46,100 nt of DNA from Lentimicrobium sp. (lineage in GTDB: Bacteria > Bacteroidota > Bacteroidia > Bacteroidales > Lentimicrobiaceae), in assembly GCA_024709105.1 (NCBI GenBank), contig JANJXJ010000228.1:1-46100 (forward strand). The letters are read 5' to 3'. Of the stretch, positions 4,076 to 44,761 are shown piece after piece. Every line of letters starts with the position of its first letter. Within the stretch, counting starts at the first letter, position 1. The notes under the pieces are model-generated. The model had not been told where the DNA came from. It saw only the letters and a program-made list of their open reading frames with translations, and ran no database searches. The translations under genes were made by a program, and so were the position numbers.

Positions 4076-4791
4076 TACATTTCGTTTAAAAGATAATCCC
4101 TGCTTACTTTCTGAAGTTGCAAACCGTAGATTTCTGCCAGATTTTTCGCCAGAATTTCTTTTACTTCATGAATATCTGCTGGTTTTTGCAGCTCGGCAGA
4201 CAAAGAAGTTACGGCTTTATCGGTAAAACCGCAGGGGTTGATGTACTTGAAATAATTCAGGTCAGTATTCACATTAAATGCAAATCCGTGCATGCTTACC
4301 CAATGGCTGGTTCTTACGCCAATGGCGCATATTTTCCGGGTTTTGGCCGGTATATGGGTGTCGAGCCATACGCCAGTAGCGCCATCGAGCCTTTCTGCTT
4401 TTAATCCGTAATGAGCAAGTGTGAGAATTATGGCTTCTTCCATTTTTTCAATGTACTCTCTGGCTCCTTTTACTATTTTTTCGAGATTCAGCAATGGATA
4501 CCCGACTATTTGCCCTGGTCCGTGATAGGTGATGTCGCCTCCCCGGTTGGTTTTAAAAAAGACCGCATCTTTCGCCTGCAACTGAATCATATCAAGCAGC
4601 AGGTTATCTTCAGAACCACTTTTTCCAAGGGTGTAAACATGAGGGTGCTCACAAAAGAGCAGGTAGTTGTCAGTTGGATCAGTTCCGGCCTTTTTCTGAT
4701 TGATGATCCGGTTAAAGAGCTTTTCCTGAAGTTCCCAGGTGGTACCGTATTCTGACAAGCCCAGGTCGGCAAATTTGGTAGTAATGTTCAA
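4075..4791 (-). CDS. lipB: Octanoyl-[ACP]:protein transferase LipB
   Basis: Transfers octanoyl groups from acyl carrier protein to lipoyl domains of 2-oxoacid dehydrogenases and GcvH, the first step of lipoate synthesis. It has 238 residues. RGGDITYHGPGQ is at 83-94, the catalytic lysine is in RKICAIGVR (K153) and the acyl-accepting cysteine is in NPCGFTD (C187). The only start giving the full N-terminus is a TTG at 4791; the next Met is near residue 68, well inside the domain. LipA is not in the window. The gene is coupled to the downstream LOG gene. Confidence 0.95.
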   Translation of the reverse strand: MNITTKFADLGLSEYGTTWELQEKLFNRIINQKKAGTDPTDNYLLFCEHPHVYTLGKSGSEDNLLLDMIQLQAKDAVFFKTNRGGDITYHGPGQIVGYPLLNLEKIVKGAREYIEKMEEAIILTLAHYGLKAERLDGATGVWLDTHIPAKTRKICAIGVRTSHWVSMHGFAFNVNTDLNYFKYINPCGFTDKAVTSLSAELQKPADIHEVKEILAKNLAEIYGLQLQKVSRDYLLNEM

Positions 4792-6338: not shown

Positions 6339-6410
6339 GGCCCTGTAGTTCAACGGATAGAACGGAAGTTTCCTAAACTTTAAATACAGGTTCGATTCCT
6401 GTCGGGGCTA
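6339..6410 (+). tRNA. tRNA-Arg(CCT), integration target
   Basis: The acceptor stem is GGCCCTG/CGGGGCT with two G-U pairs. The D stem is GTTC/GAAC. The anticodon stem GAAGT/ACTTT holds loop TTCCTAA, giving anticodon CCT (reads AGG). The T arm is ACAGG TTCGATT CCTGT, with discriminator A. CCA is not encoded. The last 16 bases of the tRNA belong to the 19-bp direct repeat that bounds the inserted element, so the integrated copy keeps the gene intact. Confidence 0.93.
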
Positions 6411-6413
6411 CAA
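6395..6413 (+). repeat. Left attachment-site core (19-bp direct repeat)
   Basis: ATTCCTGTCGGGGCTACAA, lying over the T-arm 3' strand, acceptor 3' strand and first three bases after the tRNA-Arg gene. It is identical to 12153-12171. Confidence 0.9.
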
Positions 6414-6420
6414 GTAATTC

Positions 6421-6461
6421 AAATAACCGTTTGTAATTCAATATTTTACAAACGGTTATTT
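6421..6461. terminator. Perfect 16-bp inverted repeat just inside the element, probable bidirectional terminator
   Basis: Arms at 6421-6436 and 6446-6461 are perfect complements (AAATAACCGTTTGTAA and its reverse complement) around a 9-base loop, and T-rich sequence follows on the plus strand. It lies 11 bases past the tRNA-Arg end, so it can terminate the tRNA transcript and also the leftward element operon. A role in recombination is an alternative. Confidence 0.6.
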
Positions 6462-6466
6462 TATTT

Positions 6467-6486
6467 TACATACAGAAGTACATACA
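6467..6486. repeat. Paired TACATACA boxes, candidate left integrase arm site
   Basis: TACATACA, 4 bases, TACATACA. The same box, spacing and orientation recur at 12018-12037 beside the other end. Paired short direct repeats inside both ends are typical of arm-type sites of tyrosine integrases. Binding itself is inferred. Confidence 0.55.
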
Positions 6487-6557
6487 CATTTGAATAATTA
6501 CAGGCCTTTTTTAATGGGTAAAGAAACGTTACCGGGGCTGCAATGAAACAAAGATAT

Positions 6558-6782
6558 TTATTTCGGGATCGCTTCTATTTCGTCCGTTTCTTGGGGTTCA
6601 ACTCTTTTAAAAGTTCCATCTCTTTGCTGAACCAAACTATATGAAAGCTTGGTCGGAATCTCTTCCCCTGTGGCCTCGTCTGTGTAACCGGGGGTAATTA
6701 CATTTATTGTATATAATACCTCATCGGTTTCCCCTGAAAGTAATTTCTTAACCTCGTCAATCTTCTGTTTCCGTGTTTTCAT
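6558..6782 (-). CDS. Small element protein of unknown function
   Basis: I do not recognise this 74-residue protein. It is acidic, with a charged N-terminal helix (MKTRKQKIDEVKKLLSGETDEV) followed by a likely beta-rich part (YTINVITPGYTDEATGEEIP). It is the last gene of the leftward element operon and overlaps the preceding gene by 26 bases, which suggests coupled translation and supports it being real. No transmembrane segment or signal peptide is visible. Confidence 0.6.
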   Translation of the reverse strand: MKTRKQKIDEVKKLLSGETDEVLYTINVITPGYTDEATGEEIPTKLSYSLVQQRDGTFKRVEPQETDEIEAIPK

Positions 6783-7056
6783 TGTTTTTAGCTTTAAGTC
6801 TGTTAATTAATTCGTCCAGCTGTTCATCGGTTAACCTGTCAAGTTCCTGAAGTGGTGCGGGTAACACGTGTTTAAGCAATCGTTCAATAAATGTCAAACG
6901 GTCTTTAGGTTCTAATTTATCAAAGTCTGCCTGCAACGTTTGCAAATTGTCATCAATGAAGTTTTGAACCATTACCCGAAGTTCATCGGTAGTTCTGTTT
7001 GGCTTTCCCTTTGGCCTCCCGTTTGGGTTATTGGTGGTTCCTTTATGCAGTCCCAT
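6757..7056 (-). CDS. Small DUF5681-like protein (NPNGRPKG start)
   Basis: 99 residues. The N-terminus GLHKGTTNNPNGRPKGKPNRTTDELR is a basic, Gly/Asn-rich DNA-contact-like motif seen at the start of DUF5681 and small-terminase-associated phage proteins. The rest is helical and charged (LTFIERLLKHVLP, LDRLTDEQLDELINRLKAKN) and could form a coiled coil. It follows the polymerase gene by 27 bases. In Bacteroidota such proteins often occur in prophages, but here no terminase large subunit follows. DNA binding is inferred only from the motif. Confidence 0.65.
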   Translation of the reverse strand: MGLHKGTTNNPNGRPKGKPNRTTDELRVMVQNFIDDNLQTLQADFDKLEPKDRLTFIERLLKHVLPAPLQELDRLTDEQLDELINRLKAKNNENTETED

Positions 7057-7083
7057 GTTAGTTAGTTTTTTGTTGTTTACAAA

Positions 7084-8448
7084 TTATGCCTGCCAATTTT
7101 TCAAAGCTTGGTAATACTCATCCGGTGTAACTTCCAAACCGTAATTTATCCGGCAATCGTCCGTTAATATCTCCAGGTCGTTAAGTATTTCGGCTTCGGT
7201 CTTCCCCGGGCTTAACCAAACTTCTGGTGTTAACCTGTGTGTAAATTGGTGGGTTATTATTTGCCGTATTTCAGTGCATACGGTGGCTTTTGGCTGCGCT
7301 TCTCCCGTGTCTGGTATATTTGTACATTTAGGTACTAAATCGCTTAAAACAGCCTCTTTTACGTTTAACTTGTAGAAAGTAAATTCAGAATCCAGCACCC
7401 GCCTGAATAGGCTTTCAGCTATGTGCCTTTCACTCTGTTTGACAATAACCTCATCATGTACCGACAAAAAGACAATGCCAGCATCATTCAGGGCTTTCCA
7501 TACCTTCTGCATGATTTTTACCTCTGTTGTTTGAAGCTTCCATGCAAGGTTTGAGTGTCTTTTATATTTGTGCGGGTTCTCGTTTACCTCGCTTCTCTTA
7601 TATTCATTAATCCATGTAATCCAATCGGCTGTACCAAACATTTCGGCAAGTGCATTACTTGGGGGTGCGAAGGCTATTTCAAAGAATCGTTTCTTACCTT
7701 CATCTCTTGTTTGAAGTCCAGCGGCCTCTTGTAACATTACGTAAATATCCCGGCCTTCTTCAATCCATTTACTGTACTGATTGCCCGGTATATGTTCCTG
7801 AAGCACCTTTCCCAATATTAACGGCTGCATGGTGGTAACATCAAGTCCGGCTGTACATTCATTGTCTAACAAAATATTTGCACGGTATTGCCTATGGAAA
7901 TTTGTTACCGGTGTATGAACACGGCCTGCAAAATCATCGGTAGTAAAGAACAGTTCCAATAAATCAAACCTAAACTTTAAGAAGGCATCAAAATAGTTTG
8001 TTGAGGGTGCGCCCTGTGGTAAGGATACTCTCAAAAGATTGCTTCTCATTATTGCGCTCTGCTCTCCTATTGGTTTACTATTCGGGTGCAGCCTCTTGTA
8101 TAGGTATAAATCAATTTGCCATTTGCCGGGATTAACTGCATGATAAAGTTTCAGAGTTTTGCCGGTGGCCTGGCTTGCACCTTCAGTAATCAGAAGCTCC
8201 CCGGCATCCTGAAGGGCTTGCAGCTCCTCTTGTCTTTTGAATTGTGGATATTTAAAGAAAGTTTCCTCTATAAACTTTTGGTTAATGTGTACACCTACGG
8301 CCAAATCATTATTTTTCAATCTGGTGTTCATAAATTGTAAGGTGCGAACATATACCATGAAGTTTCTTTGCTGGAAAGGAAATGCACCCGGCTGAAAGCC
8401 TTTCAGGCCTGTGCATTGTTCTTTATTCAGTGTTCCGTTTGTTTCCAT
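7084..8448 (-). CDS. Divergent family-A DNA polymerase-like protein
   Basis: About 454 residues from the ATG at 8448. The palm motifs of family-A DNA polymerases appear in order. Motif A is GLDVTTMQPLIL (Asp at 203). Motif B is RDEGKKRFFEIAFA (R248, K252, with Ala in place of the usual Gly). A WKLQTTEVKIMQ helix resembling the QGTAAD region follows, then motif C SVHDEVIV (H331, D332, E333). No 3'-5' exonuclease motifs are apparent. It probably replicates the element together with the DUF3987 protein. The frame stays open upstream to a TTG at 8610, but that part lies in a large inverted repeat and is probably non-coding. Confidence 0.72.
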   Translation of the reverse strand: METNGTLNKEQCTGLKGFQPGAFPFQQRNFMVYVRTLQFMNTRLKNNDLAVGVHINQKFIEETFFKYPQFKRQEELQALQDAGELLITEGASQATGKTLKLYHAVNPGKWQIDLYLYKRLHPNSKPIGEQSAIMRSNLLRVSLPQGAPSTNYFDAFLKFRFDLLELFFTTDDFAGRVHTPVTNFHRQYRANILLDNECTAGLDVTTMQPLILGKVLQEHIPGNQYSKWIEEGRDIYVMLQEAAGLQTRDEGKKRFFEIAFAPPSNALAEMFGTADWITWINEYKRSEVNENPHKYKRHSNLAWKLQTTEVKIMQKVWKALNDAGIVFLSVHDEVIVKQSERHIAESLFRRVLDSEFTFYKLNVKEAVLSDLVPKCTNIPDTGEAQPKATVCTEIRQIITHQFTHRLTPEVWLSPGKTEAEILNDLEILTDDCRINYGLEVTPDEYYQALKNWQA

Positions 8449-8460
8449 GTACTTGCTTAG

Positions 8461-8658
8461 TTGTGTTGCATTACTTGCATTATTTGCACAATTCAATAAT
8501 ATCAGGGCTTTCAGAAGGTTTTCCGCTTGCACAACTTTTGCACAACTTGCACAACTGAAAAAAGAAAGTGCAGAAAGTGCAAACAAAGTGCAACTGAAAA
8601 AACGTTTCAAACCGTTGATAATAAAGGAAAGTGCAAATAATGCAAATAGTGCAGCTAA
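8461..8658. repeat. Large inverted repeat with twelve symmetric TGCA boxes, candidate replication origin
   Basis: Six TTGCA boxes start at 8466, 8475, 8484, 8527, 8538 and 8547. Six TGCA(A/G) boxes start at 8569, 8578, 8589, 8632, 8641 and 8650. Each left box pairs exactly with a right box about base 8560, so the spacings 9, 9, 43, 11, 9 are mirrored. The sequence between boxes also partly matches between arms; the outermost 23 bases of the boxed part agree at 21 positions. It fills the gap between the DUF3987 stop and the polymerase start. Iteron-type origin or long mRNA hairpin are the main readings. Confidence 0.75.
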
Positions 8659-8664
8659 TCATGT

Positions 8665-10170
8665 TTAAAGTAATTTTTCGTATTCACCTTGTTTCACTCG
8701 CTTAAAGAGGTTTTTGTCATTCAAAAAGTATCCAAACATTCGATCTTTTACGCCCAAACTATCGGCTATTGCTACGCCCGTGCCTTTTTTAAAAGTTTCA
8801 GGCAATAATTCATAAAGTCTTTGTTTGTTTGCTGGTAGTCTTTCCAGCGGGCTGTCGTTTGAAATCGTGGTCAATACTCTCCGGGCTGAATTTTTGAAAT
8901 ATTCAACCAACTTTAATGCACCTCTTACAGAATCCGGGCTGATTTCTTTTGCCTCGTTTTCAATACAGGCATAGCGAAGCATCTCCAGGCAAAGGGCTAA
9001 CCGTATGGCATACTGCTGCATTTTAGTTAAAATACCTCGTATATCATCGTTTATGCTGTTGTTCCCTTCGTCTGCATTGCTCCTTTGCCATTTCCTTAGA
9101 ATCTCCTTCGCTTCAGGGTTAAATTTCAATGTTTTAGGCCTGATTGAATAATCCCCATCCGGGGTAAGCTCTAATTGCAAAAGGTTTGAAATAATTGTTT
9201 TCCAATCCGTCAACCTATCCTGATTAACTTCTTTGTTGCTCCAATAAGGCATATTTTGGTTTTCGGTGGTAACAAAGAGTAATCTGTCTAAAAATCCATC
9301 CTCTGTTCTGTTTTCTGCCAGATCATTTAGCAATGCCGGCTGTATAGTTCCAATAACAGAAATGAAAGGTAATTCAATAAAAATGGGATCGCTCGTTTTC
9401 CGGTTTACTCTTAAGGGCTGCAAGCTCCAATTGCTTAGCCAGAAACTTTCATCGTTTCCGCTGTTGTACCGATTGAAATTTTTGTACCAACTCCTAAACT
9501 CGTCAACATCTATACCAATGCCTCTTTTATTGGCATCGTGAACAGATTGTACACTTTCCAGCGTGGCATCTCCTAAAAGCATCTGAAGTGGAACAGGTTT
9601 TTCCGGGGGGTCTGTACCTTCGCTTTTACTCCTTGCTAATGCGGTTTTGTATTCTTTTAGCTGTTCCTTATATGTATTGAATTTCTCTTTGTCGCGCTCC
9701 TGAATAGGCTTTAACGCCCATTTGATAGGGTGGGTTTTCATTGCTCCCTTCTTGCCAACCAAAACTATATAAAGAACAGCGCGTTCTTGCCAGCCTCTCT
9801 GTACTTCAACATCGTGTGTATTTCCAATGGCAACCGAAACAGCATATAGAATCGAAGCTCCCATGTAGTCAATAGGGAAATTCAGACATTTGTTTGTTTC
9901 GTTTATTATCTGCTGAACCTTTGCCGGGAACACATCTAAAGGGAAAGGGTTTTGTGTAGGTTCAAAGGGTTCCCCTGTGTGCTGTCTGTAATCATTATGC
10001 ACATTGCTGAAAGCATTGTTATTCTCTGCTGGTGCAAATATCACGGAAAGCTCGAAATCTAAAAATGAATCTTGACTTTTGAACGGGATTTCATTAACTT
10101 TGCGCTGTTCTTCATTCAATCGCTCTACTTCTGCCTGACTTATCCCGGTCGGGCTTTTTTCTTCAAACAT
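8665..10170 (-). CDS. DUF3987 protein (putative replicative helicase/primase-associated ATPase)
   Basis: 501 residues. The P-loop-like VGKKGAMKTHP (about 138-148) and the DVDEFRSWYKNFNRY segment with acidic Walker-B character match DUF3987, a family common in Bacteroidota phages and mobile elements and presumed to act in replication. A C-terminal winged-helix-like region (KGTGVAIADSLGVKDRMFGYFL) is typical. The start at 10170 is chosen over 10251 because GGAGG lies 7 bases upstream and the ATG follows the HTH stop by one base. It sits in one operon with the HTH gene and the polymerase. No primase catalytic domain is recognised. Confidence 0.82.
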   Translation of the reverse strand: MFEEKSPTGISQAEVERLNEEQRKVNEIPFKSQDSFLDFELSVIFAPAENNNAFSNVHNDYRQHTGEPFEPTQNPFPLDVFPAKVQQIINETNKCLNFPIDYMGASILYAVSVAIGNTHDVEVQRGWQERAVLYIVLVGKKGAMKTHPIKWALKPIQERDKEKFNTYKEQLKEYKTALARSKSEGTDPPEKPVPLQMLLGDATLESVQSVHDANKRGIGIDVDEFRSWYKNFNRYNSGNDESFWLSNWSLQPLRVNRKTSDPIFIELPFISVIGTIQPALLNDLAENRTEDGFLDRLLFVTTENQNMPYWSNKEVNQDRLTDWKTIISNLLQLELTPDGDYSIRPKTLKFNPEAKEILRKWQRSNADEGNNSINDDIRGILTKMQQYAIRLALCLEMLRYACIENEAKEISPDSVRGALKLVEYFKNSARRVLTTISNDSPLERLPANKQRLYELLPETFKKGTGVAIADSLGVKDRMFGYFLNDKNLFKRVKQGEYEKLL

Positions 10171-10171
10171 A

Positions 10172-10456
10172 TTAAGTCCTCCGGCTTTTCTGTGTGTAAG
10201 AATTGAAAGCATCTCGCACTTTATCAGGATCAAAAAGAACGGTTCTTCCATCCTGCCAGAACGGAATAATACCTGAATTTTTTAGCTGTTGCGCTCTTGG
10301 TACAGATACACGTAAAAATTCAGCAAGTTCACGTGTACCTTTTATGAAAGGCTGTGGTGAAGCTTGCTTAATGTTTTCCGGCATTGCATCCCTAACTGCT
10401 TCCTTAATCATCCGCGAAAGATCATCGCGCCCAATCTGAATTAATAACTGTTCCAT
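10172..10456 (-). CDS. DUF3853-like helix-turn-helix protein (excisionase-type)
   Basis: 94 residues. A helical N-terminus (LIQIGRDDLSRMIKEAVRDAM) precedes a MerR/Xis-type helix-turn-helix (GTRELAEFLRVSVPRAQQLKNSGIIPFWQDGRTVLFDPDKVRDAF, about residues 40-85). This matches small DUF3853-like proteins of Bacteroidota elements that resemble excisionases or regulators. It is the first gene of the leftward replication operon, between the integrase and DUF3987 genes, where an excisionase or copy-control regulator would be expected. Which of the two it is cannot be read from the sequence. Confidence 0.75.
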   Translation of the reverse strand: MEQLLIQIGRDDLSRMIKEAVRDAMPENIKQASPQPFIKGTRELAEFLRVSVPRAQQLKNSGIIPFWQDGRTVLFDPDKVRDAFNSYTQKSRRT

Positions 10457-10481
10457 GTTGTTGGATTATTTTGATAATGCA

Positions 10482-10510
10482 ATAATACAACATAATGAAA
10501 AATTTGTCAA
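10482..10510 (-). promoter_or_regulatory. Promoter of the element replication operon
   Basis: The minus strand reads TTGACA, 17 bases, TATTAT, then TG. This fits the general sigma-70 consensus and also nearly fits the Bacteroidota TTTG/TAnnTTTG form (TATTATTG, 20 bases after TTG). Transcription would start about 20 bases before the ATG at 10456. Confidence 0.6.
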
Positions 10511-10620
10511 GTATTGATTTTATCTACATAAAAGATAATATATTTATAAATGATAAAGATAATATAAACAGCACATATAAAAACAGGTTAAACAACTGTA
10601 ATACAGATATATATAAATGC

Positions 10621-10671
10621 GAAGTTATTAACAATATATACCGGAATTTTTGCCGGTGAAATTATTAACAA
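10621..10671. promoter_or_regulatory. Direct repeats flanking a hairpin after the integrase gene
   Basis: GAA(G/A)TTATTAACAA occurs at 10621-10634 and 10658-10671. Between them is an ACCGG/CCGGT hairpin at 10640-10657. It lies in an AT-rich 223-base gap between the integrase stop and the HTH gene, which also carries two AAAGATAATATA repeats near 10530-10565. Possible roles are transcription termination of the integrase, binding of the HTH protein, or DNA unwinding. Confidence 0.4.
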
Positions 10672-10679
10672 CGAAGTTC

Positions 10680-11993
10680 TTAAAATTTACTGATTGCCTG
10701 CTCTTGCAGTTCTTTGTTTACATCGTAATAACGTGTAAAGGCCTTACTGTTGGGTGAGTGTCCTGTCATGCTGGTAATTATTGATCGGTCAACTTTGCCA
10801 TATAGATTACCTGCAAAGGTTTTTCTTGCCATGTGGCTGCTTACAATATCGCAAAGTCTAACCTGTTCGGGTTCCTCTGTGTGCGGGTTCAATCTGGTAA
10901 CTATTCGCGTCAATCCAACTTCTCTGAATAATTCTTTTAGGTAAACATTATAACGCTGATCGCAAATAAAAGGCAATAGCCTGCCATCTGGTAAGTCATA
11001 TTTTTTAAGAATCTCAATGGCTTGGGGGTGCAAAGGTATATTAATAGTTTCCGGTCGGTCTTTTTTAGTCTTTTGACGTATATAGGTGATTGTATTGCCC
11101 TGTAAATTGTTTTTAGTAAGTTTAACAAAGTCCCCAACGCCCATACCTACAAAACACTGAAATACGAAAAGATCGCGCACACGTTCTAACCTTTCAGAAG
11201 ATAATTCAGCACAAAACAGAATGTTCCTTTCTTTATTTGAAATATAAATAGGTGTTCCGTAAACCTCCCCGGGCAATTGGTAGCCATTGCGCCCAAATAG
11301 TTCGGGTAAAGTCAATCCCTTTTCTTTTAAGGTCTTCCTTAAGTAATTCCAGAAGGCTCTTGTGATTGTCATATTTTTATGAACGGAATTTCTACTTTTA
11401 GGTGAAAGTATTTCAATTTTGGAATTATAAGCCTTCGGCCTTGTGCTTTCTTTCTTTATGTATCCTGCAAAATCATTTAACAAGTTCAGGTCTATATCTT
11501 TATATTGTAAATCAATCCTTCTTGCTTTTACGTACTTCCTCCAATGCTTTAGGGTGGTTCTAATGTTGCGCTTTCTTACATCTGAAATTTCAGCATCGTG
11601 AATGTATTTTTCAAACATTACAAAGAAATCAGTTTCAGGGTCTTGTTTATTTTGCTCTGATTTATAGCAAATATCATCCAATATTTGAACAACTTCTTTT
11701 TTTTCGCTGCTGCTAACTGATTGGAAATGTAATTCAAGGGCTGCCTTTATAGCCTTGAACCTCCTGTTCATATCTGAATAAGAAACAATTCGCGAACCTT
11801 CGCGGCCTGAAGCGTTTTTCTTTACTTCTTGGGCTTCGGTGTTAAATTTTGTAGTGTCTACTCTGTAACCTGTAAAATAAAATAACCGATTGCCTGAAAA
11901 CTTTATATCCGCAAAAATCGGAACGTTTGTAGTAATCAGGTTTCCAGATTTATCTTTCCTTCTTTCGGGTGAAATCTTTACACTGTGTTTCAT
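10680..11993 (-). CDS. Tyrosine recombinase / integrase with an Arg-to-Gly change at the first catalytic position
   Basis: 437-residue Bacteroidota tyrosine integrase with an N-terminal arm-binding part, a SAM-like core-binding domain and a C-terminal catalytic domain. In numbering from the upstream ATG at 12038, HMAR (H402, R405), TGHS (H427) and the nucleophile region RYYDV (Y437/Y438) are present. The place of the first catalytic arginine, usually G-x-R-x-(S/G)-D, reads GMGVGD (Gly300). The start at 11993 is preferred because a TATTTTTG promoter box lies between the two ATGs. It sits next to the right attachment site and presumably inserted the element into tRNA-Arg. Confidence 0.92.
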   Translation of the reverse strand: MKHSVKISPERRKDKSGNLITTNVPIFADIKFSGNRLFYFTGYRVDTTKFNTEAQEVKKNASGREGSRIVSYSDMNRRFKAIKAALELHFQSVSSSEKKEVVQILDDICYKSEQNKQDPETDFFVMFEKYIHDAEISDVRKRNIRTTLKHWRKYVKARRIDLQYKDIDLNLLNDFAGYIKKESTRPKAYNSKIEILSPKSRNSVHKNMTITRAFWNYLRKTLKEKGLTLPELFGRNGYQLPGEVYGTPIYISNKERNILFCAELSSERLERVRDLFVFQCFVGMGVGDFVKLTKNNLQGNTITYIRQKTKKDRPETINIPLHPQAIEILKKYDLPDGRLLPFICDQRYNVYLKELFREVGLTRIVTRLNPHTEEPEQVRLCDIVSSHMARKTFAGNLYGKVDRSIITSMTGHSPNSKAFTRYYDVNKELQEQAISKF

Positions 11994-12017
11994 TTCTGTA
12001 TGTGTGCTTAGTTTAAC

Positions 12018-12037
12018 TACATACAAAAATACATACA
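12018..12037. repeat. Paired TACATACA boxes, candidate right integrase arm site
   Basis: TACATACA, 4 bases, TACATACA, in the same orientation as 6467-6486. It covers the integrase -7 box, so binding here could repress the integrase gene. Confidence 0.55.
12024..12031 (-). promoter_or_regulatory. -7 box of the integrase promoter
   Basis: The minus strand reads TATTTTTG, a match to TAnnTTTG, about 30 bases before the ATG at 11993. No good -33 element is seen. It lies inside the paired TACATACA boxes. Confidence 0.45.
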
Positions 12038-12152
12038 CTTTTTTATTTAACCTAATTTAACAGGATATTATTTAATATATTTGCAACGCTGTAAATCAGG
12101 GCTATATGTTAATATAAAATAATGCAATGTATTGTATTAAAATGATATTTGT

Positions 12153-12171
12153 ATTCCTGTCGGGGCTACAA
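12153..12171 (+). repeat. Right attachment-site core (19-bp direct repeat)
   Basis: Identical to 6395-6413. Only the tRNA 3' end is repeated here; no other tRNA arms are present, so it is not a second tRNA gene. Confidence 0.9.
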
Positions 12172-16604: not shown

Positions 16605-16922
16605 ATGAAACGTTCAAAAAACAATGTAGTTGGGATGATCAAGGAAAAGGTCAGGCAAATTGACCCGGGTGCTGAAGTAATTCTATTCGGGAGTCGGGCC
16701 AGGGGAGAAGCCCGGCCAGACTCAGACTGGGATATATTGATTCTGGTGGATGAAGAAGCGACTTTTGAACGCGAAAGATACTTCAGGCATGAACTTTTCA
16801 ATTTGGAACTTACGCTGGGTGAGGCATTCTCGGTTTTTATCTTTAATAAATCCGAATGGAACCTAAAGTACAGAAATACAGATTTTTATAAAAATGTTAT
16901 TAATGAAGGGCTTTCAGTATGA
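16605..16922 (+). CDS. MNT-type nucleotidyltransferase (antitoxin-like)
   Basis: 105-residue minimal nucleotidyltransferase. The DNA polymerase beta-type signature GSRARGEARPDSDWD (29-43) supplies the GS motif and the two metal-binding aspartates D41 and D43. In MNT/HEPN modules the partner of this kind AMPylates and silences the HEPN RNase toxin. The next gene overlaps by 4 bases (ATGA) and is a HEPN protein, which supports the pairing. Met11 is an alternative start. Activity is inferred from the motif and context. Confidence 0.85.
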   Translation: MKRSKNNVVGMIKEKVRQIDPGAEVILFGSRARGEARPDSDWDILILVDEEATFERERYFRHELFNLELTLGEAFSVFIFNKSEWNLKYRNTDFYKNVINEGLSV

Positions 16923-17320
16923 GCAGCCAATTTAATCATGATGACTATATTTACTTCAGAATTAAAAAAGCTGAAGAAACCTTGTTTGATGCAGAAATTC
17001 TTGCGAGAGAAGGAAGATGGAATTCGTCAATGAATCGGTTATATTATGCTTGTTTCTATGCTGTACTAGCTTTATTGTCAAAGCATCGTATTTTAACAAG
17101 AACACATTCAGGTGTTAAGACTCAATTTGGCTTAAAGTTTATCTTAACAGGTAGTATTGAAAAAAAATGGGGAGCCTTTTATTCCGATATTTTTGCATTA
17201 AGACAGAAAGGAGATTATGCAGACTTCATCGAATTTAATGAGAGAGAACTGCTTATTATGATCCCGGAAGCAAAAGAGTTTATTGAAATTATAAAATCTC
17301 ACCTGCAAAATCCTGTTTAA
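16919..17320 (+). CDS. HEPN-domain protein (HepT/UPF0332-like toxin candidate)
   Basis: 133-residue all-helical HEPN protein. The helix NRLYYACFYAVLALLSK (39-55) and the R-x4-Y motif RQKGDY (95-100) are characteristic of HEPN/UPF0332 proteins, where the Arg and the following polar residue form an RNase site. The histidine of classical RX4HXY HepT toxins is not seen, so RNase activity is less certain. It is translationally coupled to the MNT gene. A free-standing substrate-binding role for the nucleotidyltransferase is the alternative. Confidence 0.82.
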   Translation: MSSQFNHDDYIYFRIKKAEETLFDAEILAREGRWNSSMNRLYYACFYAVLALLSKHRILTRTHSGVKTQFGLKFILTGSIEKKWGAFYSDIFALRQKGDYADFIEFNERELLIMIPEAKEFIEIIKSHLQNPV

Positions 17321-43707: not shown

Positions 43708-44400
43708 ATGCAAAAAATTAAGGTTGTCTTATTTCTTCTCTTTTTTGGCCTGTTTTTTCAATCTTTTGGTCAGAAAGATTTCTACTACAGAGTGAGAGCT
43801 GATTTTTCGGTAAAGGAGAAAAGTTCTGACGGAAGAAACAGTTTAACAATGGGCAAAGTGTATTATGACAAAGCCAGAAAAAGGATTGTTTATAACGTAC
43901 TATTCCCGGAAAAGGAGATGTGGCTGTTTACCGATTCGGTGATGTATGTCATTAAAGGTAATAATCGCGAGAAAAAGCCCATTGTTGCGGGATATATTGA
44001 CTTCTCGGTTTTTAATCTGTCATTAAATAACAAGTTGAAGGATTATGGCCTGAAAAATTCTATATATTCTTTAAAAGAAGTTACCCGCGACGAAGATATG
44101 GTGATATCCTTGTGGGAACCGCATAAAGAATATGCAAAACTGGTAGGCAACATCAGGGTTGCAGTAAAGGACAACCGATTGTATGGTGTTTTGGTGTATG
44201 ATGCCAGTAATAAACTGATTGGCAGGCAGGTTTTCTCCGAGTACACCAAAATAGGGAGTTTTGAGTTCCCGACAGAGATTATCAACATCACCTACCTCGA
44301 AAACGGAGAGGAAGTAACACAAATCACTACCTACTCAAATGTTAAAGTAAACAACTGGGATGAAGATTATTTTTACAATTATAATGTTACTGAGCCTTAG
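43708..44400 (+). CDS. LolA-like / DUF4292-like envelope protein
   Basis: 230 residues with a signal peptide (VVLFLLFFGLFFQSFGQ). The mature part alternates short beta strands (DFYYRVRADFSVKEKS, GKVYYDKARKRIVYNVLFP, WLFTDSVMYVIKGN, NIRVAVKDNRLYGVLVYDASNKLIGRQVFSEY, GSFEFPTEIINITYLENGEEVTQITTYSNVKVN). This pattern is that of the LolA/LolB fold that binds lipid. No lipobox cysteine is present, so it would be a soluble periplasmic protein. It overlaps the downstream YidD gene by 41 bases. Confidence 0.65.
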   Translation: MQKIKVVLFLLFFGLFFQSFGQKDFYYRVRADFSVKEKSSDGRNSLTMGKVYYDKARKRIVYNVLFPEKEMWLFTDSVMYVIKGNNREKKPIVAGYIDFSVFNLSLNNKLKDYGLKNSIYSLKEVTRDEDMVISLWEPHKEYAKLVGNIRVAVKDNRLYGVLVYDASNKLIGRQVFSEYTKIGSFEFPTEIINITYLENGEEVTQITTYSNVKVNNWDEDYFYNYNVTEP

Positions 44401-44761
44401 TGCCGTTTTTGCTCAGCAAAGCAGCACTGGTTTTCTTGAAATGGCCGGCAATATTGTTGAAAGTCAGAATACCCGCGAGCACCACCACGATTTCAGTCAT
44501 TACCTGAATCAATGCTCCAACGAGGCTGAAGTCATTTTTACCATTTTCTTTCTGGGATACAAGAACTTTTTCTCTTCACAGGATAGCCGCAGTTGCACCT
44601 TTGAGCCCAGTTGCTCGGTGTATGCCATTGAAACCATCAGGAAAAACGGTATAATTAAAGGTTTTCTCGATTCGGTTGACAGGCTCACCCGCTGCAACGG
44701 ACTATCACCAGAAAACTATGATATTGACCCTGAAAAACGCCTGATGCTTGATGAGCCATAA
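44360..44761 (+). CDS. YidD-like protein with a signal peptide
   Basis: 133 residues. The C-terminal half is YidD-like: SCTFEPSCSVYAIETIRKNGIIKGFLDSVDRLTRCNG, then NYDIDPEKR, with the conserved cysteines and the YAIExI-xxGxxKG pattern. YidD normally has about 70-90 residues, sits on the cytoplasmic face and aids YidC-dependent membrane insertion. Here an extra N-terminus of about 65 residues begins with what looks like a cleavable signal peptide (MKIIFTIIMLLSLSAVFAQQ), which would place it outside the cytoplasm. It overlaps the LolA-like gene by 41 bases, which supports co-expression. Confidence 0.8.
   Translation: MKIIFTIIMLLSLSAVFAQQSSTGFLEMAGNIVESQNTREHHHDFSHYLNQCSNEAEVIFTIFFLGYKNFFSSQDSRSCTFEPSCSVYAIETIRKNGIIKGFLDSVDRLTRCNGLSPENYDIDPEKRLMLDEP

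Follow-up and report, generated by a model that had tools for sequence, protein, structure and literature searches.

The gap between the genes encoding a DUF3987 helicase and a TV-Pol family polymerase, in a 5.8-kb integrative element of Lentimicrobium sp., carries twelve TGCA boxes placed in exact mirror order, and this array is probably the replication origin of the element, bound by the C-terminal winged helix of the helicase. The window, i.e. the whole stretch of DNA that was analysed, comprises 46,100 nucleotides of contig JANJXJ010000228.1, and the element and its genes are located in it as follows.

6395..12171, no strand assigned: integrative element of 5.8 kb, bracketed by 19-bp direct repeats
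10680..12038, minus strand: tyrosine integrase gene (Pfam Phage_int_SAM_5, 6.1e-8, and Phage_integrase, 4.7e-6; PHROG integrase, 2.3e-18)
10172..10456, minus strand: small HTH, excisionase-like gene (DUF3853, 30.6 bits, above the cut-off of 22.1)
8665..10251, minus strand: DUF3987 helicase gene, the proposed origin-binding initiator (Pfam, P-loop motif, AF2 model and MCM fold matches)
7084..8448, minus strand: TV-Pol family polymerase gene (start ATG at 8448; signature motifs and fold match)
6757..7056, minus strand: small ORF with a weak DUF5681 match below its cut-off

The 19-bp repeat is identical at 6395-6413 and 12153-12171, and its left copy overlaps the 3' end of a tRNA-Arg gene (6339-6411). 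Along the direction of transcription the order is tyrosine integrase, excisionase-like HTH protein, DUF3987 helicase, array, polymerase and small ORF. The Phage_integrase score of the integrase (26.9 bits) is slightly below the cut-off of 27.1, and the matches of the small HTH gene to HTH_17 and TIGR01764 (excise) are both below cut-off. The helicase reaches 192.3 bits against PF13148, for a curated cut-off of 27, and bears the Walker A motif G166KKGAMKT. In its AF2 model the core matches MCM helicases in fold, as expected of an AAA+ core of MCM type, and the C-terminal part is predicted to form a winged helix; the mean pLDDT of the model is 64.5, which counts against the origin reading. The TV-Pol motifs D203, R248xxxK252 and H331DE are invariant across nine aligned sequences including that of the window, and the polymerase model resembles T7 DNA polymerase and Klenow (family A polymerases) in fold. 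A search of solved structures by sequence matched neither the helicase nor the polymerase. The last ca. 70 residues of the window TV-Pol (region 7084-7230; EI..IITHQF..RL.P.VWLSPGKT) recur at the end of a BT4734-like primase (L014) and of a DUF6371-type primase (L016), while the C-terminal region of other TV-Pols (L013, L017) is DUF6965 instead; loci L011 and L012 were also compared, and from these sequences tails seem to have been exchanged among primases. Elsewhere in the window, at 16605-17320, a nucleotidyltransferase gene is followed by a HEPN gene, which we take to be the make-up of an MNT/HEPN toxin-antitoxin pair.

The array itself is composed of the following parts.

8466..8488, plus strand: left outer triplet of boxes, TTGCA three times, spacing 9 and 9
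8527..8551, plus strand: left inner triplet, TTGCA three times, spacing 11 and 9
8552..8568, no strand assigned: mirror centre, 17 nt, 71% A+T
8569..8593, minus strand: right inner triplet, TGCAG, TGCAA and TGCAA, spacing 9 and 11
8632..8654, minus strand: right outer triplet, TGCAA, TGCAA and TGCAG, spacing 9 and 9

The twelve TGCA boxes (8467-8653) start at 8467, 8476, 8485, 8528, 8539, 8548, 8569, 8578, 8589, 8632, 8641 and 8650, so that the spacings run 9,9,43,11,9 on the left, 21 across the centre and 9,11,43,9,9 on the right, with a coordinate sum of 17120 in every mirror pair. The left six boxes are TTGCA and the right six TGCAA (four) or TGCAG (two); read outward, ten are TTGCA and two CTGCA. 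Full mirror symmetry was reached by none of 200,000 random placements of twelve boxes, and the densest other non-overlapping 198-bp stretch of the whole window holds seven TGCA, as compared to the twelve of the array. The A+T enrichment of the centre is mild, a point against the origin reading, with 62% and 69% in the inter-triplet stretches and about 60% in the window nearby. Both flanking genes are on the minus strand, and the gap between helicase stop and polymerase ATG extends from 8449 to 8664 (216 bp), which the boxes, spanning 8466-8654, therefore nearly fill. The first-pass annotation had given the boxes, their sums and their mirrored spacings exact to the base and had named the DUF3987 and polymerase genes rightly, the latter being a TV-Pol; its statement that the array fills the gap exactly has to be relaxed to a near-complete filling. 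In a control intergenic gap of the window (44285-44561), CTGAAA occurs five times, a number reached by 3 of 400 shuffles.

A near-identical geometry of twelve boxes was found in three other DUF3987 elements, two with the word TGGCAC and one with TGGTCC. In one of them (L073) the helicase is 50% identical to that of the window and is accompanied by a DUF6371 primase instead of a TV-Pol; its spacings on the coding strand are 9,9,55,11,9 on one side, 21 at the centre and 9,11,43,9,9 on the other, and its boxes read outward TGGCA (eleven) and TTGCA (one). The corresponding spacings on the coding strand are 9,9,43,11,8, then 25, then 9,11,42,8,9 in L137 (L111), whose word is TGGTCC with two degenerate left boxes, and 8,10,44,11,10, then 32, then 8,12,43,8,10 in L136 (L109), whose word is TGGCAC with three degenerate boxes. 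In these four elements, therefore, the positions of the boxes are kept and their letters change together, which is the outcome of the comparison of related intergenic regions that had been proposed for the window. When 803,168 bases in 140 overlapping records were scanned with a 6-box template, the two halves were recovered in the window and L111/L137, and a single half in L073 and L109/L136. Further matches fell in the gap regions of four other loci (L012, L025, L092, L124) and in about ten unrelated places consisting mostly of simple sequence; the scan may be taken as supporting, not decisive, evidence for a shared geometry. Over 35 arrays, the commonest distance between neighbouring boxes of the same direction is 9 bp (73 out of 148).

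Arrays with other words are located in the same place in other relatives. Those relatives in the genome collection that bear a name are MAGs of Bacteroidota, with the labels Lentimicrobium, Bacteroidales, Sphingobacteriia, Aureispira and Flavobacterium, and the arrays upstream of related polymerases have the words GTTTACA (L011), TTTGCATA (L013), TTAACACAG (L017) and GGTGCAA (L025); the gap upstream of another related polymerase (L028) contains no array. The same pattern was found in elements with other primases (TOPRIM-like DUF6371, BT4734-like), in Bacteroides elements with DUF3987, and in the surveyed DUF6371 loci, from a survey in which 24 of 247 genomes matched. A gap of at least 30 bp was scored as passing the repeat test when it held a 6-mer in at least four copies with p<=0.01 against dinucleotide shuffles. 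With the window included, 29 of 47 helicase-primase gaps passed, versus 7 of 141 other intergenic gaps from the same loci (Fisher p 1.6e-15); these counts include near-copies, which are not independent of each other (L093/L094/L100 among the failures, L092/L124 and L130/L133 among the passes). A 5-mer coverage statistic was less clean than the 6-mer count, performing poorly for L017, L106 and L125. The set of 47 leaves out duplicate places (L115, the same as L087, and L125, the same as L086), a near-copy (L131, of L130), a locus with no usable gap (L134), one whose gene crosses the record start (L098), fragments or loci without a helicase-primase pair (L074, L076, L079, L080, L083, L084, L088) and those in which no upstream ORF was found (L112, L113, L123).

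The 18 gaps that fail count against the origin reading; five of them contain nothing (L028, L117, L121, L126, L128) and the others mostly three copies. Of eleven boundaries first classed as gapless, the same scan detected no array at eight, which also counts against that reading, and arrays at three: just past the helicase stop in L109, and within the coding 3' end of the helicase gene, directly before the primase gene, in L101 and L127, where the protein tail is therefore encoded by the repeats. In L132 the gap (4120-4208) holds a single long near-perfect inverted repeat in place of a box array. Distant TV-Pol matches inspected by eye in the right orientation (e.g. L009, L039, L049, L052) have no upstream array, and several others are in the wrong orientation; these are uncounted. 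Two further distant matches of the polymerase search (L044, L046) are primases with arrays, which entered the counts as L085 and L086. Searches for close polymerase relatives among viral contigs, plasmids and phages found none, and viral contigs yielded no match with a single helicase query and seven with a helicase alignment. On Bacteroides plasmid records (L093, L094, L095), the succession helicase, array and primase is followed by relaxase genes, so that the same replication module occurs on conjugation-mobilisable elements.

Boxes organised in two opposed blocks are present in 18 of the 29 passing arrays, for 4.4 expected, a number reached in none of 20,000 simulations, and the other 11 (e.g. 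L011, L013, L017, L025) are not so organised, with the proviso that these one-switch counts use the single best 6-mer, so that arrays with degenerate boxes may be misclassed. The exact mirror is thus a strong tendency and not universal; what is constant is the repeated word.

The box word tracks the helicase tail most visibly among 11 RepA-like helicases, in which it follows the last 45 residues (an HTH) with r 0.53, reached by 1 of 5000 permutations (4 of 5000 in a rerun with other random permutations), versus r 0.04 for the core. Linkage controls were flat in the same set, as neither the preceding 60 residues nor the flanking primase showed a link to the word. For the DUF3987 helicases the value was again r 0.53 (n=13, 1/5000), falling without near-copies to r 0.29 (n=10, 172/5000; partial on core, 81/5000), a decrease that counts against the origin reading. 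Because of this decrease, it is the RepA-like class that carries the case for covariation between word and tail, which, as judged from the sequences, appears clear in that class and weak in the DUF3987 class, the present DUF3987 set being too small.

We infer for this predicted origin the binding, melting, loading of a double ring and replication itself, in the following manner. Each box would be bound by the winged-helix domain at the C-terminus of the DUF3987 helicase that the element itself encodes. Once the element is excised, helicase subunits would bind the boxes as two opposed sets, open the DNA between these sets and be loaded as two opposed rings, and the neighbouring TV-Pol would then prime and copy. 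The first-pass annotation had already favoured an iteron-type origin to which an element protein binds, and this is still the best-supported reading, with the helicase tail as the proposed element protein: the kept geometry and the tracking of the RepA-like C-terminus by the words argue for it, while the exact mirror extends to two opposed blocks in 18 of 29 arrays only.

It could also be that the helicase, or another protein of the element, binds the boxes as an operator or partition-like site that controls the polymerase gene or the copy number, replication starting elsewhere. The array immediately precedes the polymerase ATG, the position expected of an operator, and plasmid iteron arrays often do both jobs, which we have counted in favour of this explanation. 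We consider it unlikely, given that two opposed sets with twelve boxes in all, spread over almost 190 bp, would exceed the need of a simple operator, that it is a helicase tail, and not a dedicated repressor, that the word follows, and that in L101 and L127 the array lies inside the helicase frame. A transfer origin (oriT) for conjugative mobilisation would fit the presence of relaxase genes downstream of the primase gene in the three Bacteroides relatives, but there the array sits between helicase and primase instead of next to the mobilisation genes, no match to a relaxase family was obtained for any of the five proteins encoded by the window element, and the word follows the helicase HTH, all of which makes this function very improbable.

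The alternative raised in the first-pass annotation, a long hairpin in the helicase-polymerase mRNA that would tune the expression of the polymerase, draws on the folding of the minus strand of the array (-72 kcal/mol, z -5.9) and on the fact that every one of the 29 passing arrays folds better than its own shuffles do on average (z -1.6 to -7.5). Folding is not decisive, because opposed repeats must fold. The complementarity of the mirrored boxes (24/24) is likewise built in, TGCA being its own reverse complement, so that base pairing alone was rejected as evidence. In the mirrored spacers of the window, pairing is limited to 38 of 75 positions, and 11 of the 29 arrays lack two opposed blocks. 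Moreover, a hairpin does not account for the fact that each array repeats a single word, which changes jointly in all boxes and tracks the helicase HTH. We therefore hold the hairpin to be quite improbable, and less likely than an origin.

The alpha protein of satellite P4 is the satellite's own helicase and also recognises the origin repeats (ori/crr sites). It is a fused primase-helicase, whereas here helicase and polymerase are separate genes. The P4 alpha system is named in the available text of a work on PICIs (PMC6092414), according to which PICI origins are located directly 3' of the initiator gene and consist of two iteron sets around an AT-rich stretch, a layout that its authors regarded as shared by no other known bacterial replicon. 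In the same portions of that source, PICIs/SaPIs resemble the present group in being small tyrosine-integrase elements whose iterons differ from one element to another. The array is thus most likely laid out like a PICI origin, with its two iteron sets directly 3' of the initiator gene, and the likeness would concern the layout of the origin, not membership of the element among PICIs. The claim that a new origin type is involved consequently stands only in part. Unlike in PICIs/SaPIs, the order is strictly mirrored, with 43/11/9 spacing common to four elements, the helicases are of the DUF3987, AAA_25 or DUF5906 type, a separate primase or TV-Pol gene is located downstream of the array, and the hosts are Bacteroidota.

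The PICMIs of Vibrionaceae are similar to the window element in size (about 6 kb) and in carrying an integrase, an AlpA-like regulator and a DUF3987/DUF5906 'primase', and the accessible text makes no mention of iterons (PMC10803314). They integrate beside fis, and membership of the window element, which is in tRNA-Arg, was rejected on this ground. TV-Pol was predicted to be a primase-polymerase, and the mobile elements in which it was described share with the window the polymerase signature and an adjoining helicase gene, no origin or repeat array being described in the sections available (PMC2579912). DUF3987 has been predicted to be an AAA+ helicase of mobile elements that takes the place of MCM, RepA or DnaB next to primases, a prediction which, in the portion of the source at hand, names no DNA site and leaves iterons unmentioned (PMC5862659). 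The word iteron is also absent from the available text of a review of integrative and mobilisable elements (PMC5704250), and no description of such arrays in Bacteroidota was found among titles and beginnings of abstracts, a scope with subscription journals mostly outside it.

A stricter version of the origin reading, which we regard as doubtful, is that the array acts as a ruler, with twelve boxes, six per direction, providing one box for each subunit of two head-to-head MCM-like rings, and with tail and word forming a lock and key that could be swapped across Bacteroidota mobile elements. One box per subunit in both directions would imply that the placement and orientation of the two rings are set by DNA sequence alone. 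The number of boxes differs in other arrays (e.g. 3+3 or 4+4), which argues against a strict ruler.

The origin-like organisation recurs in Bacteroidota elements whose helicases belong to different families, some of these elements being on Bacteroides plasmid records. If the array is a true origin, it would offer a route to finding origins in unannotated mobile elements, natural pairs of helicase tail and box word from which a DNA-recognition code might be read, and a small system in bacteria for testing the sequence-directed loading of opposed helicase rings.
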